The notes under the pieces are model-generated. The model had not been told where the DNA came from, ran no database searches, and saw nothing but the letters and a program-made list of their open reading frames with translations. DNA of 22,159 nt, taken from positions 1 to 22,159 of the IMG/VR virus record IMGVR_UViG_3300009164_000391. One strand, given 5' to 3'. This DNA is from a virus. A program made the position numbers and the translations under genes. Of this stretch, positions 14,954 to 22,041 are shown one piece after another; the first letter of the stretch is position 1, and the number at the start of each line of letters is the position of its first letter.

Positions 14954-15176
14954 AAAGAAATCCCCTAACCTCTCTGTTGGCAGAGGTGAGAAGTTGTCTG
15001 TCAAAGCAGGTGGCGGTCTGACTGCCAAAGGTAGAGCAAAGGTCAATCGTGCTACTGGTAGCAAGTTGAAAGCTCCTACTAAGTCAGGCCCTCGCCACAA
15101 GTCTTTCTGTGCCCGTTCTAAGAACTGGAAGGGCGAGAGAGGAAAAGCGGCGAGGAAGCGCTGGGGCTGTCGTTAA
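14946..15176 (+). CDS. Small basic protein, DUF6321-like
   Basis: A 76-residue, strongly basic protein (MPRKKSPNLSVGRGEKLSVK, then GGLTAKGRAKVNRATGSKLK, ending RKRWGCR). The GGLTAKGRAKxNRxTGSxLKAP core, followed by GPRHKSFCAR, matches the phage/bacterial family I recall as DUF6321. Its function is not known; the charge suggests nucleic-acid binding. It overlaps the endolysin by 8 nt and is the last gene of the rightward block. Its TAA shares two bases with the stop of the oncoming glycosyltransferase gene. Confidence 0.75.
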   Translation: MPRKKSPNLSVGRGEKLSVKAGGGLTAKGRAKVNRATGSKLKAPTKSGPRHKSFCARSKNWKGERGKAARKRWGCR

Positions 15177-15961
15177 GGAGCAGGTAGTAACCCGCCTTCA
15201 AAGAGGTAGGTTCCAAAATGCCCTAGAGATACCCACGGTGCAGCGTAGACCTTAAACCCTGCGTCTCTGGCTCTACGACAAAAGCCATAGTCTTCAGACA
15301 ACAGACGTTCATCTTCATCTATAAATACTGGGAAGTATTCGTAGATACGTTCTTGACCAAGTGTTAGGCTCAGGTCACGCACATCGTTCTTGTAGCTGGC
15401 TACGGACTTCTTCATCTTCTCAAAAACTCTGCGCTTGATAAGCATGAAGCCTGTGCCGCCATTCCATATCTCTACAGGTTTATCAATAGGCACAGTAACA
15501 GAGCCACTGTAGCCAACCAAATTAACAACCATAGAACCTGTGTAGTGCTTAAGTCTCTCAACGGGTACTCCTTCTTTTACAGCCTTGTGTACGCCTTCCC
15601 AACTAATTTCCTTCTTAGGATAGATACCGCAGATGATGTCCTTGTCAGCGTTGAGCATGGAGACAATATCTGCTGAGTTAAAGCGTATGTCTGCATCTAT
15701 AAACATCAAGTGTGTATAGGCAGGGTTTTTCATAAAGCCGTGGGCAAGGGCGTTGCGAGCACGCTGCACCAAGCTCTCGTTAAACATGGCTGTGTAGGAC
15801 ATGTCTATGTTGTTGGCTGTCATGGTGTTGGGCATGGACAGCAGTGACTGGGTGTAGTAACCCGTAGCCATACCGCCGTACATAGGGGTGGCAACAAAGA
15901 TGTGTGGTTTCTTTGCTTCCTTAACTGTTTTCTTGGCTACTGGCTCTTTCTTCTTTACCAT
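15173..15961 (-). CDS. Glycosyltransferase, GT-A fold
   Basis: A 262-residue protein with a good SD (AAGGAAC, 6 nt before ATG). After a Lys-rich leader, a Rossmann-like strand (PHIFVATPMYGG) starts at residue 19. FIDADIRF holds the D89-x-D91 motif that binds the metal and nucleotide-sugar. NGGTGFMLIKRRVF (about 167-180) and SEDYGFCRRARDAG (about 222-235, Glu/Asp at 223-224) are the usual acceptor-side and catalytic elements. No membrane segment, so it should act in the cytoplasm. In phages such enzymes may glycosylate phage DNA, virion proteins or host surface sugars; the substrate is not readable here. It is last in the leftward transcript, and its stop overlaps the convergent gene. Confidence 0.82.
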   Translation of the reverse strand: MVKKKEPVAKKTVKEAKKPHIFVATPMYGGMATGYYTQSLLSMPNTMTANNIDMSYTAMFNESLVQRARNALAHGFMKNPAYTHLMFIDADIRFNSADIVSMLNADKDIICGIYPKKEISWEGVHKAVKEGVPVERLKHYTGSMVVNLVGYSGSVTVPIDKPVEIWNGGTGFMLIKRRVFEKMKKSVASYKNDVRDLSLTLGQERIYEYFPVFIDEDERLLSEDYGFCRRARDAGFKVYAAPWVSLGHFGTYLFEGGLLPAP

Positions 15962-16119: not shown

Positions 16120-16385
16120 CCGTGTACCTCTATTCGTATGTTTGCATCACGTACAAGAGCCAGTGTGTCTGACGCTTGTATCTTCTTAATCCTGTCGCTT
16201 ACCGCACTAGCTGTCACCTGCACGGCAAGGACTTCTCCTTTTCGTATGGCAAGGATGTCGCACCACCCCCAGAGGTCTTTCCTTTGTTTTGTAAAGGAGT
16301 TCCACTTCTCTACTATTTCGCAGTGGTAACCCTGCTCACGTAGATACGCTAGTGACCGCTGTGTGGGGGAGGTCTTAGTTGCCAT
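16062..16385 (-). CDS. PD-(D/E)XK / Holliday-resolvase-like protein
   Basis: A 107-residue protein coupled to the gene before it by TGATG. Its core RKDLWGWCDILAIRKGEVLA, followed by VQVTASAVSDRIKKI, has the shape of the archaeal-Hjr/VRR-NUC nuclease fold: Glu23 or Glu26 on the first helix/strand, Asp43 at the G-x-x-D position, and then a strand (VQVTA) where the usual E-x-K would be Q56-x-T58. The Asp is kept but the Glu and Lys are not, so either this is a subfamily with a migrated Lys (Lys67/68 follow) or it binds DNA without cutting. It lies in the recombination operon, so a role in resolving branched phage DNA is reasonable. Confidence 0.6.
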   Translation of the reverse strand: MATKTSPTQRSLAYLREQGYHCEIVEKWNSFTKQRKDLWGWCDILAIRKGEVLAVQVTASAVSDRIKKIQASDTLALVRDANIRIEVHGWRKSAKTNRYVLRIEDIS

Positions 16386-16702
16386 CAGAAGGGCACGTCG
16401 TCGTCAAAGCCATCACCACCAAATTTCTTATGTTTGACGGTGTTGTAAGACGGTGGCACTTCTTTGTCTCCACGCTCTTCCATCTTCTTTTTCTTGCTCC
16501 AGTTGTCCTCAGACAGAGAGAGCAAGTTGTAGCCTCGGCTGGTAGGTTTCTGCCAAGCAGCGAGTTTGAGTTTCTCGCCAGCTTTGTAGTCCATCTCTAG
16601 GACGATGAAGCCTTTAAAGTCAGGTGCTTTATCACCTTTCCTCTGTTCTTCTTCTTCCCAGTACATGACCCCTTTGCCGGGTTTCTCGTTATGTACGTTC
16701 AT
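16385..16702 (-). CDS. SSB-like protein with DDDVPF C-terminal tip
   Basis: A 105-residue protein from ATG 16702 with SD AAAGGAA (6 nt). The longer in-frame start at 16741 is rejected because it lacks an SD. Residues 8-68 look like a small beta domain (KPGKGVMYWEEEE, KAPDFKGFIVLEMDYKAGEK, LKLAAWQKPTSRGYNLLSLS). Residues 69-95 are a Lys-rich linker. The protein ends GFDDDVPF, nearly the DDDIPF tip with which bacterial SSB recruits recombination and replication partners. Next to an exonuclease and a RecT-like protein, a single-strand-binding or SSB-tip-mimic role is likely. It is shorter than E. coli SSB, and the OB fold is inferred. Confidence 0.6.
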   Translation of the reverse strand: MNVHNEKPGKGVMYWEEEEQRKGDKAPDFKGFIVLEMDYKAGEKLKLAAWQKPTSRGYNLLSLSEDNWSKKKKMEERGDKEVPPSYNTVKHKKFGGDGFDDDVPF

Positions 16703-16934
16703 ATTTTTCCTTTCTGTATGTGTACTGTGCAAATTCGGCACTGCCTTGTTTGACCATCGTGGTGTGGATGGGGTGTCCTTGTTTTCTAAGAACTTCTATG
16801 TGAGCTGCAAGTCTGAAACTTCCATAATGTTGCAGGGCATCTTTAGGAGTAAGTGGCCCTATTTCAGTAAGGTGTTTCAGAATATTGGCTCGCTGACTGC
16901 CGCTGCGGGTGATGGTGGGGGTTCCGACTTTGGG
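16689..16934 (-). CDS. Winged-helix (HTH_39-like) ORF with no ATG/GTG/TTG start
   Basis: An open frame that ends at TAA 16691-16689 and is bounded upstream by an in-frame TAA at 16970-16968. It encodes GTPTITRSGSQRANILKHLT, then EIGPLTPKDALQHYGSFRLA and AHIEVLRKQGHPIHTTMVKQ. The pattern ILxxLxxxGPLTPxDALxxYGxFRLAAxIxxLRxxGHxIxT is a clear phage winged-helix DNA-binding domain. No normal start codon lies before it. It could begin at ATT, ATC or CTG, or be a C-terminal extension of the RecT-like protein made by -1 frameshifting at CCCAAAG; the coordinates given start there. The SSB-like gene's SD lies in its last codons, so its translation would couple to that gene. The domain is very likely; the expression route is inferred. 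Confidence 0.65.
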   Translation of the reverse strand, partial: PKVGTPTITRSGSQRANILKHLTEIGPLTPKDALQHYGSFRLAAHIEVLRKQGHPIHTTMVKQGSAEFAQYTYRKEKYERT

Positions 16935-17749
16935 TTTGTGGACACGCCAGCCTCCGCTAATAGAGCTTTAATCTTTATCTTCTGAAAAGAATCTAGGCTC
17001 TCTAGCATGTCCATATTGCAAGCCTTGAGGCCATCTATCTTTTCTGCTTTGCCAGCATCGTCAAACTTGGTTGACTTGTAGATGCGTGCAATCATTTCAG
17101 CGTAGCCAGCTACCCATTCTTCTTTTGTGTGAAAAGCTGAGTAAGGTGCTTCTGTGTTGGGTAGATACAACTTGTACGCACCGTCCGCCTCTTCAATGCT
17201 CGGCGGTATCTCAGGCGTAGATACAGGTTCCACCCGCTCTGCCATGCCCATATCTTTGGGCGCTTGATTTCTAGGGGAATCAAAATCTTGCACCTCTTCT
17301 GGTGTGTAGACTCCGACAACGCAGCCGGGATATACAGAGCGTATGCCCTCCGATATGACTCTAGCCCTGAGCATAGCTCTTGGATAGTTCTTCCAGTTAT
17401 CCTTGTTGGCAATCCCGATAGCTTTTGCTTGCGCCAGACTCCAAGACACCTCAAGTGCGCCCCCTGACGGGTGGCTAAATAACCCCGTGACCTTATCATT
17501 TGTGTACTCCTTCCAGTTAACACTACCTCCTGCTTGCTGGAAACGAGCCAGCATTGCGTCTGCTTTCAACGCAGGTCTGCCTTGTATGACGTGGTAATCA
17601 CGCATAGCAACGGCGGGATGCAGACTCTCTGCTTGGCATAGCAACATGATTGCCATAGCCTCTTGTGGGTTCTTAAACCCGAACATCTTGCTAGATGCTG
17701 CGACTTCTGCCATTTGCTGAATGTCAGCGAGTGGGACGATATTAGACAT
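16877..17749 (-). CDS. RecT-like single-strand annealing protein
   Basis: A 290-residue protein from ATG 17749 with SD GGAG (7 nt); the frame is open further up but the upstream Met has no SD. The N-terminal 150 residues (PLADIQQMAEVAASSKMFGF, AMAIMLLCQAESLHPAVAMR, DYHVIQGRPALKADAMLARF, and a later RAMLRARVISEGIRSVYPG) match the phage family annotated as RecT-like. Such proteins anneal homologous single strands after a 5'-3' exonuclease has made 3' tails; a YqaJ-type exonuclease is two small genes upstream. Residues 160-220 are a Pro/Glu linker, 225-268 helical, and the end (KSEPPPSPAAAVSEPIF) is low complexity. That tail is replaced by a DNA-binding domain in the frameshift product (predicted 353 aa). 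Confidence 0.7.
   Translation of the reverse strand: MSNIVPLADIQQMAEVAASSKMFGFKNPQEAMAIMLLCQAESLHPAVAMRDYHVIQGRPALKADAMLARFQQAGGSVNWKEYTNDKVTGLFSHPSGGALEVSWSLAQAKAIGIANKDNWKNYPRAMLRARVISEGIRSVYPGCVVGVYTPEEVQDFDSPRNQAPKDMGMAERVEPVSTPEIPPSIEEADGAYKLYLPNTEAPYSAFHTKEEWVAGYAEMIARIYKSTKFDDAGKAEKIDGLKACNMDMLESLDSFQKIKIKALLAEAGVSTNPKSEPPPSPAAAVSEPIF
16928..16934 (-). promoter_or_regulatory. Candidate -1 frameshift slippery heptamer CCCAAAG
   Basis: In the RecT-like frame the codons are AAC CCA AAG TCG, so the site reads C CCA AAG, the canonical X XXY YYZ form. After a -1 slip the tRNAs re-pair with CCC and AAA. A GGAGG lies 16 nt upstream (dnaX-type stimulators sit nearer, about 10 nt). The -1 frame continues for 79 codons into the winged-helix domain. 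No strong downstream hairpin was seen. Confidence 0.4.
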
Positions 17750-17997: not shown

Positions 17998-18897
17998 TTA
18001 ACCTTTCACTAGGAAACGGCGGGAGCCGGGAACCAGCACTTCAAACTGCCCGTAGATGTCAGGCATGGAGGACTGGAAGAGTTTGCTATCAAACTTCTTG
18101 CTAGGTTTGGCGTTCTTCCACGTAGCCAGCACTGTGCCCTCTATGGTGGTCAACGTAGCCTTGTCAGACATGTAGCCTTGTATAAGGGTCTGGAATTGCT
18201 CCTTACGCTCTTCTAGAGCCTTTATTTCCTTGTTGATGACAGCTAGGTAGCGACAAGCCTCTTCAACGCTTTGTGAGGCTGTTCTAGACTCTCCGTTATC
18301 TACGGGGTACATGAGCCTTACTTGGTCAGATGACTCAGGTGGAAGGGGGTTTTTAGAGAGAACTCGTGCCCACACTTCCGCCATCTGGACGATTAAATCC
18401 GTTTTTTGTTGCTCAGTAATGTGAAAAGGGCAGAGGAAGAACTCCTGACCACCAAATAGCACAGCCAGATACACTTTGTCCACACCGAATACTGTCGCCT
18501 CATGTACCAACTGAGCCATATCAGCAGCAGGAATGATTCCAGCCTCAGCGTCAAACTTATTACGGGTAGCAGCGTTGTAGTTTTTACACTCAACCAGTAT
18601 TGTTTTACCATCTTCTTTACCTGCAAAATCAAAATGTGAGCGTAGCCACGCCTCTTTAGGGTGGGTGAGGGATTCCTCTATCTTGGTGAGTTCTACCTTT
18701 AACTTGGCTTGTGCTAGTCTGCCAATGACGGGTTCCATCACATGACCCATCTGCACAGCCTCTACGTTAGAGAGGTCAGGAATGTCCATCATGCCCAGCT
18801 TGGTGAGGATGACTTCGTTGGCTTTTCCTTGGGCTACCTTGCGGGAGTCACCAGACCAGATAGCGGAGTTACGGGTTTCGGGTGTGAAGTCACTCAT
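17998..18897 (-). CDS. YqaJ/lambda-Exo-type recombination exonuclease
   Basis: A 299-residue protein with SD GAGGGAA overlapping the end of the preceding gene (ATGA). It shows the PD-(D/E)XK core of viral recombinases: QMGHVMEPVIGRLAQ (Glu55), SHFDFAG (Asp90) and LVECKNY (Glu103, Lys105), followed by the helix MAQLVHEATVFG that lines the active site. The C-terminal third is a helical extension with a coiled coil (EEACRYLAVINKEIKALEER). The enzyme should digest the 5' strand of duplex ends in the cytoplasm to give 3' tails for the RecT-like protein. Length and motif order fit the family. All key catalytic residues are present. Confidence 0.88.
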   Translation of the reverse strand: MSDFTPETRNSAIWSGDSRKVAQGKANEVILTKLGMMDIPDLSNVEAVQMGHVMEPVIGRLAQAKLKVELTKIEESLTHPKEAWLRSHFDFAGKEDGKTILVECKNYNAATRNKFDAEAGIIPAADMAQLVHEATVFGVDKVYLAVLFGGQEFFLCPFHITEQQKTDLIVQMAEVWARVLSKNPLPPESSDQVRLMYPVDNGESRTASQSVEEACRYLAVINKEIKALEERKEQFQTLIQGYMSDKATLTTIEGTVLATWKNAKPSKKFDSKLFQSSMPDIYGQFEVLVPGSRRFLVKG

Positions 18898-20987: not shown

Positions 20988-21854
20988 TTATGCCGCTTTC
21001 GCCTCTGCTGTTGCGTCAAGCATGTTTATATAGTCTGCCGCTTTTTGTGCATACGCCGCCGCTTTAAATACTGCCTTGCTATCGTCACGCAATGCTTTTA
21101 ACCAGCTTTGTATATATCCGGCGTGCCTTAACTCGCCTTGGATACCGTAATCCTGACAGAGGAACGCCGCACCCATTTCTGCAACAAGTTCCTCGAAAGC
21201 ATACGCCGGATTACCAAATCTGCCCTTATCGAGGTTACGGTCTAATCTATCTTTGTGGCCTGTCCAATGCGTTAATTCGTGAAATGCTGTTGCATAGTAG
21301 TTTTCCTCACTGTTAAACGCCGATTTATGCGGCATTTGGATTCTGTCCTGAGAGGGCATGTAAAAAGCGGCATCACTACCGTGAGACAGTGCCGCACCTG
21401 TTTTAATAATGCGTTCCTCTGCTAACTGGTTAGCTGTAAACGGTTTATCTGCTGGTTTTTCAACGGTTATCGTGATGCCCTCTACCTGAGAGGCATTAAA
21501 AACAACATAAGACTTTAAAACAGCATACGATTCTGTTTCACCTGTTTGTTTGTTTTCTTTACTGACAGGCGAATAAAAGACAATCTTTGTGCCCTTTTCG
21601 CCTTTTCGCACGTTAGCCCCTAAGGACTGCCATTGTTTGAATGATGCCCACACTGGCACGTCAAACCCTCTCACCATGCCTGTCATACCTAAGATTAAAC
21701 GGTTAATGCCTTGATAGGGCTTTTGTGTCAGGATGTTTTTATCCGCACTGCTGTCTGCTGTCCATGGCTTTATCCAAGGAACAGCACCCTTTTCTAGCTG
21801 TTCAATAATGCTGTTTGTAACGTCATCATATAAAGATTGTTTAGAGTCTGTCAT
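20988..21854 (-). CDS. ardC: ArdC-like antirestriction protein
   Basis: A 288-residue protein from ATG 21854 (SD AAAGG, 10 nt); the longer in-frame start at 21911 would include a hydrophobic leader lying in the promoter and is rejected. Residues 5-135 match the ArdC N-terminal ssDNA-binding domain (DVTNSIIEQLEKGAVPWIKP, then KPYQGINRLIL, then VWASFKQWQSLGANVRKGEK). Residues 140-285 are the zincin domain with FHELTHW (His192, Glu193, His196) and a downstream EELVAEMGAAF giving the third ligand. Plasmid ArdC protects incoming DNA from restriction; phage copies are presumed to do so at infection. All key residues are intact. Confidence 0.85.
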   Translation of the reverse strand: MTDSKQSLYDDVTNSIIEQLEKGAVPWIKPWTADSSADKNILTQKPYQGINRLILGMTGMVRGFDVPVWASFKQWQSLGANVRKGEKGTKIVFYSPVSKENKQTGETESYAVLKSYVVFNASQVEGITITVEKPADKPFTANQLAEERIIKTGAALSHGSDAAFYMPSQDRIQMPHKSAFNSEENYYATAFHELTHWTGHKDRLDRNLDKGRFGNPAYAFEELVAEMGAAFLCQDYGIQGELRHAGYIQSWLKALRDDSKAVFKAAAYAQKAADYINMLDATAEAKAA

Positions 21855-21891
21855 TTGGCACTGCCTTTCAAAGTAATGAATGAATGAGAGA

Positions 21892-21900
21892 ATTATAACA
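21892..21900 (-). promoter_or_regulatory. Extended -10 promoter for ardC
   Basis: On the minus strand TG-T-TATAAT (21900-21892) is a perfect extended -10 element. No good -35 lies 17 bp upstream, which extended -10 promoters do not need. Transcription would start near 21885, 31 nt before the ardC ATG. Confidence 0.55.
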
Positions 21901-22041
21901 CTAATAATCAACTAATATTCTAACCCTCTCATATATATAGCATAATAGAATCGTGCCAGATGCTGTAACTCGTTGATTTATATATGGTAGGAATAACCCT
22001 AAGTACAATAAAGCATTACATATTCTAATGTTAACGCTAAA

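Follow-up and report, generated by a model that had tools for sequence, protein, structure and literature searches.

The question raised by this locus is how a winged-helix reading frame that overlaps the 3' end of a phage recombination gene, and that has no start codon of its own, might be translated. The window, by which we mean the whole stretch of 22,159 nucleotides analyzed here, corresponds to positions 1 to 22,159 of IMG/VR virus record IMGVR_UViG_3300009164_000391 and derives from a freshwater phage. Its recombination genes lie on the minus strand. A RecE-like/YqaJ exonuclease (17998..18897; Pfam YqaJ, 31.1 bits; PHROG 434, E = 4.6e-41) is encoded upstream of a RecT-family single-strand annealing protein of 290 aa (16877..17749; start ATG at 17749, stop TGA at 16879-16877). 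The RecT protein matches Pfam RecT (PF03837) at 28.4 bits, above the curated cutoff of 24, and PHROG 561 (RecT-like ssDNA annealing protein) with an E value of 4.6e-23; its annealing function is predicted from this family match. The next gene downstream (16385..16702) shows a weak SSB-like match (PHROG 18154, single strand DNA binding protein, E = 0.0028) and encodes a C terminus of DDDVPF; its ATG, at 16702, falls within the last part of the winged-helix frame. Elsewhere on the minus strand, the window encodes an ArdC-type anti-restriction protein with a zincin-like metallopeptidase domain (20988-21911) and, past the recombination genes, a weakly glycosyltransferase-like protein (15173-15961; PHROG 1574, function unknown, E = 5.1e-51).

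The winged-helix frame opens after a TAA just upstream (-1-frame residues SSISGGWRVHKPKVG...) and closes at a TAA at 16691-16689. It matches Pfam HTH_39 (PF14090) at 32.3 bits (cutoff, 21.3). No ATG, GTG or TTG precedes the domain, and the first canonical start in the frame is the ATG of ...HTTMVKQG, past the recognition helix. Within the overlap, the heptamer C_CCA_AAG (16928..16934, minus strand) is read as C|CCA|AAG in the RecT frame and is the proposed site of a -1 shift; this sequence has been stated to be highly shift prone in E. coli (PMC5009743). The segment from the heptamer to the TAA (16689..16934, minus strand) encodes a linker followed by the winged-helix HTH_39 domain. Conceptual translation in the 0 frame to AAG and in the -1 frame thereafter gives a protein of 353 aa with the junction PKVGTP, in which this segment forms the C-terminal extension. 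Ribosomes that did not shift would instead read a short tail, SEPPPSPAAAVSEPIF, and stop (16877..16927, minus strand); this 0-frame tail overlaps the -1 frame, is variable among relatives, and is modeled with low confidence. A preliminary description of this DNA had proposed the start-less frame overlapping recT in the -1 frame, the heptamer at 16934-16928 in exact phase, and a 353-aa product with the PKVGTP junction beside the 290-aa form. When rechecked on the sequence, the coordinates, phase, and lengths were all correct.

To collect RecT loci, IMG/VR and GenBank phages were searched with the RecT protein and the winged helix of the window, with three divergent RecT sequences, and with one alignment each of RecT and of the winged helix. 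The resulting set comprised 226 distinct loci with sufficient downstream DNA, 105 with the domain beside recT and 121 without it. Wherever present, the domain followed recT in the -1 frame (105/105) and never in the 0 or +1 frame. An in-phase heptamer was likewise found in all 105 domain loci (CCCAAA followed by A or G in 98, AAAAAAG in 7), and no ATG, GTG, or TTG occurred between the heptamer and the start of the domain in any of them (0/105). The preliminary description had called for an alignment of relatives for precisely these two features, and the conservation of both is strongly favorable to its proposal. The seven AAAAAAG loci constitute the L130 group, which has a different RecT core and carries A_AAA_AAG in phase; an exchange between AAAAAAG and CCCAAAG is predicted by selection for slippage and not by protein conservation alone. 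The same arrangement was seen in relatives with as little as about 45% identity. When the winged-helix alignment was the sole query, 72 of 72 cases had the heptamer and no start, and pooling all searches gave 133 distinct heptamer-bearing loci. No in-frame RecT-HTH_39 fusion was found among the RecT loci searched, and none of nine distant RecT relatives in GTDB genomes had the domain nearby.

Among the 121 RecT loci lacking the domain, an in-phase CCCAAAG near the end of the gene was present in 8, which fall into three sequence groups (L119; L213 with L215, L216, and L264; L222 with L226 and L227); counting TTTAAAG adds two more loci (10/121). In the second and third of these groups, where the winged helix is absent, CCCAAAG lies 52 to 55 nt before the stop and a -1 extension of roughly 60 aa overlaps the next gene. 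L222 also has a GGGGAGGGG element upstream of its in-phase CCCAAAG. These heptamers may be due to chance or may mark a second kind of extension.

We then considered the codons at the heptamer after grouping the loci at 80% nucleotide identity into 31 clusters. The codon 5' of CCA encodes any of ten amino acids (L, N, S, G, F, Y, V, H, A, or D), and its third base is invariably C in the CCCAAA clusters (30/31) and A in the AAAAAAG cluster. The Pro codon at the heptamer is always CCA in the CCCAAA clusters, CCA making up 32% of the Pro codons in these genes, and the AAAAAAG cluster has AAA at that place. Conditional on the encoded residues, multiplying the probabilities of the 5' base and of the CCA/AAA codon over the 31 clusters gives about 10^-28; this naive value takes no account of the ancestry that the clusters share and is therefore an overstatement. 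The heptamer is conserved beyond what the amino acids need. Substitution patterns also change along the overlap. Upstream of the heptamer, 52% of substitutions fall at the 0-frame third position; those in the linker are distributed over the three positions (34/28/38%); and in the domain, both within and beyond the overlap, 51 to 52% fall at the -1-frame third position. This shift indicates that the coding frame changes in the overlap 3' of the heptamer. For the linker itself the evidence for -1 coding is modest, amino acid identity being 0.80 when it is read in the -1 frame and 0.75 when it is read in the 0 frame.

Elements that might stimulate slippage were less uniform. In about 90% of the 31 clusters, a 9-nt window able to bind the anti-Shine-Dalgarno (anti-SD) sequence lies 5 to 10 nt 5' of the heptamer, a dnaX-like spacing. 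The GGAGG that the preliminary description had put 16 nt 5' of the heptamer is indeed there (16951..16955, minus strand), and it may act as a displaced stimulator. The anti-SD duplex is calculated at -9.5 kcal/mol, but its 9-nt window ends 13 nt from the heptamer, a spacing exceeding that of most relatives, and the usual place for such an element reads GGCGT here. Because the G-rich element coincides with conserved Gly codons, protein coding may account for part of its conservation. No general 3' stimulatory structure emerged over the 31 clusters (mean z of about -0.6), and no strong stem was predicted 3' of the window heptamer (z of +1.1 for the identical contig L004). With a displaced SD-like element and no strong downstream structure, frameshift efficiency in the window may be low. 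The L028/L130 clade has an 11-bp stem beginning 6 nt after the heptamer, with 99% of cells paired. It shows almost no covariation beyond chance, too little for covariation to be accepted as proof of the stem.

The explanation that competes best with frameshifting, although we consider it improbable, is that reinitiation after termination at the recT stop yields a separate winged-helix protein, the start being an internal ATG, TTG, or CTG that overlaps the stop (ATGA, TTGA, or CTGA). One clade of 14 of the 133 loci has an in-frame ATG inside helix 1 of the domain that overlaps the recT stop as ATGA; many other loci have a TTG or CTG nearby, the TTG falling on the Ile-Leu of helix 1 at that position; and the window has CTGA. 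The preliminary description had named relatives with an in-frame ATG for the winged-helix gene as evidence that would tell against frameshifting. None occurs between the heptamer and the start of the domain in the 105 domain loci, and what was found is this ATG inside it in 14 loci. Because those 14 loci retain both heptamer and linker, they point to a possible second route in that clade and do not refute frameshifting; reinitiation there may add a shortened winged helix. As a general account, reinitiation fares poorly. Its product would miss the start of helix 1 (residues 14-24 of the structural model described below), whereas stand-alone members of the family start before the domain: in phage loci, stand-alone HTH_39 frames have an ATG, GTG, or TTG no more than 7 codons from the domain in 21 of 21 cases, a count that leaves out the truncated L112 and the error-ridden L114. 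The clades in which recT stops early (L003, L028, and L088) have no overlapping start. Finally, reinitiation leaves unexplained the in-phase heptamer, the fixed 5' base, the SD-like element at shift-site spacing, and the AAAAAAG swap. A separate overlap of another type was seen at L115:3271-4288, where a phage recT is overlapped by a small gene annotated as prtN-like that lies in a different frame and has its own ATG.

Initiation at a near-cognate codon (ATT, ATC, or CTG) upstream of the domain, raised earlier as an alternative, is very improbable. The window does contain an ATC, 7 codons past CCC when read in the -1 frame, as well as an ATT upstream of the heptamer, but near-cognate codons lie between heptamer and domain in just 10 of 105 loci. 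A start upstream of the heptamer is countered by the 9 of 133 loci in which a -1-frame stop directly abuts it on the 5' side; in those loci, the shift must occur at the heptamer or later and not upstream. Just as improbable is slippage by RNA polymerase rather than the ribosome. The AAAAAAG variant, with its six A residues, would suit such a mechanism; CCCAAAG, however, lacks a long homopolymer, polymerase slippage would not need the fixed codon phase of the heptamer, and a ribosome-binding, SD-like element lies at a fixed distance from it. We therefore rejected both of these explanations. The other alternative raised earlier, a one-base sequencing or assembly error splitting a single recT-winged-helix gene, is refuted: although the contigs are metagenomic and L114 looks error ridden, a second IMG/VR contig, L004, matches the window at 100% identity through 5870 nt that include the site, and relatives, including GenBank MW202825, share the same frame arrangement.

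Taken with the conservation described above, these comparisons make it highly probable, as judged from sequence, that programmed -1 ribosomal frameshifting is the intended decoding of the recT-winged-helix frame. Most ribosomes would read through C_CCA_AAG, add the short variable tail, and stop, yielding the 290-aa annealing protein. A fraction would slip back one base while decoding CCA-AAG and re-pair on CCC-AAA, aided by the upstream SD-like element in most relatives and by the downstream stem-loop in one clade. These slipped ribosomes would continue in the -1 frame and produce a RecT of 353 aa that ends in a winged-helix DNA-binding domain. Both the occurrence of slippage in the host and its efficiency are inferences.

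What, then, would the extension contribute? An AlphaFold2 model of it has the order H-H-H-E-E with a mean pLDDT of 80.5. Its best Foldseek matches are mostly winged-helix proteins (TFIIE, Stf76, and PadR), with E values of 0.015 or weaker. The extension is accordingly predicted to be a winged helix of three helices and two strands. Sequence searches against solved structures gave no convincing relative of either the RecT part or the extension. Stand-alone HTH_39 proteins of Burkholderia and Roseobacter phages (BcepIL02 gp19 and Roseobacter phage CRP-227 gp15) belong to the same winged-helix family and are encoded beside phage replication genes; they differ from the RecT extension in having their own start codons.

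The domain and its signal occur together on at least three RecT lineages, one of which has a core only 30% identical to that of the window. On the tree, five gains or losses are required to account for the distribution of the domain, and well-supported branches force no fewer than three of these. The L266/L267/L282 clade (of the L082 type) is nested with strong support in the winged-helix clade and has lost both the domain and the heptamer. At L088:1647-2728, the core that shares only 30% identity with the RecT of the window is followed by a similar C-terminal helical region, a slippery site, and a winged helix. This locus and L130, each combining a divergent core with a similar tail, suggest that the 3' half of recT has been exchanged as a unit.

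The proposed mechanism is of a known kind, and the gene and the outcome are absent from the literature searched. Its closest counterpart is E. coli dnaX, in which A_AAA_AAG is combined with an upstream SD sequence and a 3' stem-loop. The RecT loci have in common with it a tandem-slippage heptamer and, in most relatives, an SD-like element about 10 nt upstream, and the seven-locus group of relatives uses the identical A_AAA_AAG with a downstream stem. The two systems differ in that the dnaX frameshift yields the shorter product and the proposed RecT frameshift the longer one, and in that the window has C_CCA_AAG, a displaced SD-like element, and no strong stem. IS911 and other IS3-family elements use a -1 frameshift to make OrfAB, in which a helix-turn-helix region is joined to the transposase. 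There, too, the shift links a helix-turn-helix to a DNA-processing protein; the helix-turn-helix is N terminal, however, and the fusion is the enzyme, whereas RecT is complete before the shift and would gain its DNA-binding domain at the C terminus. A stimulator of the IS911 frameshift has been described (PMC5009743). In the G-GT tail chaperone of phage lambda, as in other tail-chaperone frameshifts, a -1 shift near the 3' end of the gene makes a minor product that shares its N terminus with the major one and has an additional C-terminal domain (PMC5009743). The RecT case resembles this in position, near the end of a phage gene, and in the addition of a C-terminal domain, but the lambda proteins are tail assembly chaperones and not recombination proteins, and no DNA-binding domain is added. 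With RecT/Redbeta-type annealing proteins that have exonuclease partners, the locus shares the RecT domain and the upstream RecE-like exonuclease. We know of no C-terminal DNA-binding extension of a RecT/Redbeta protein that is made by frameshifting. No RecT frameshift was found in the open-access literature searched, though an earlier mention elsewhere is possible. GenBank MW202825 records the extension as no more than a truncated helix-turn-helix gene, which indicates that present annotation misses the long product.

RecT/Redbeta-type proteins act as oligomers. The role that we consider likeliest for the long form, and offer tentatively, is that of an anchor: long subunits, as the minority in otherwise ordinary RecT oligomers, would hold the annealing complex on duplex DNA or on specific phage DNA, for example, a replication origin or fork, with the long form present in a set ratio to the short one. 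This suggestion draws on the winged-helix prediction, the replication-gene neighbors of the stand-alone relatives, and the oligomeric nature of RecT proteins. The data are equally compatible with an extension that acts in autoregulation of the cluster or in recruitment to the phage origin.

The well-known phage frameshifts mostly serve virion assembly. A frameshift in a recombination gene would supply an annealing protein in two forms at a set ratio, and since more than 100 related phage sequences preserve the signal, it is very probably a genuine means of producing two recombinase versions. RecT-type proteins are the basis of recombineering, to which a natural RecT form carrying a DNA-binding domain would be of direct interest. 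More broadly, the slippery site and winged helix could constitute a mobile module, present on at least three RecT lineages, that sets the ratio of anchored to plain annealing protein. If this view, to which we give somewhat less than an even chance, is correct, it would be the first known programmed frameshift to give a recombinase a DNA-binding domain, and it would steer phage recombination, or replication that depends on recombination, to particular DNA.
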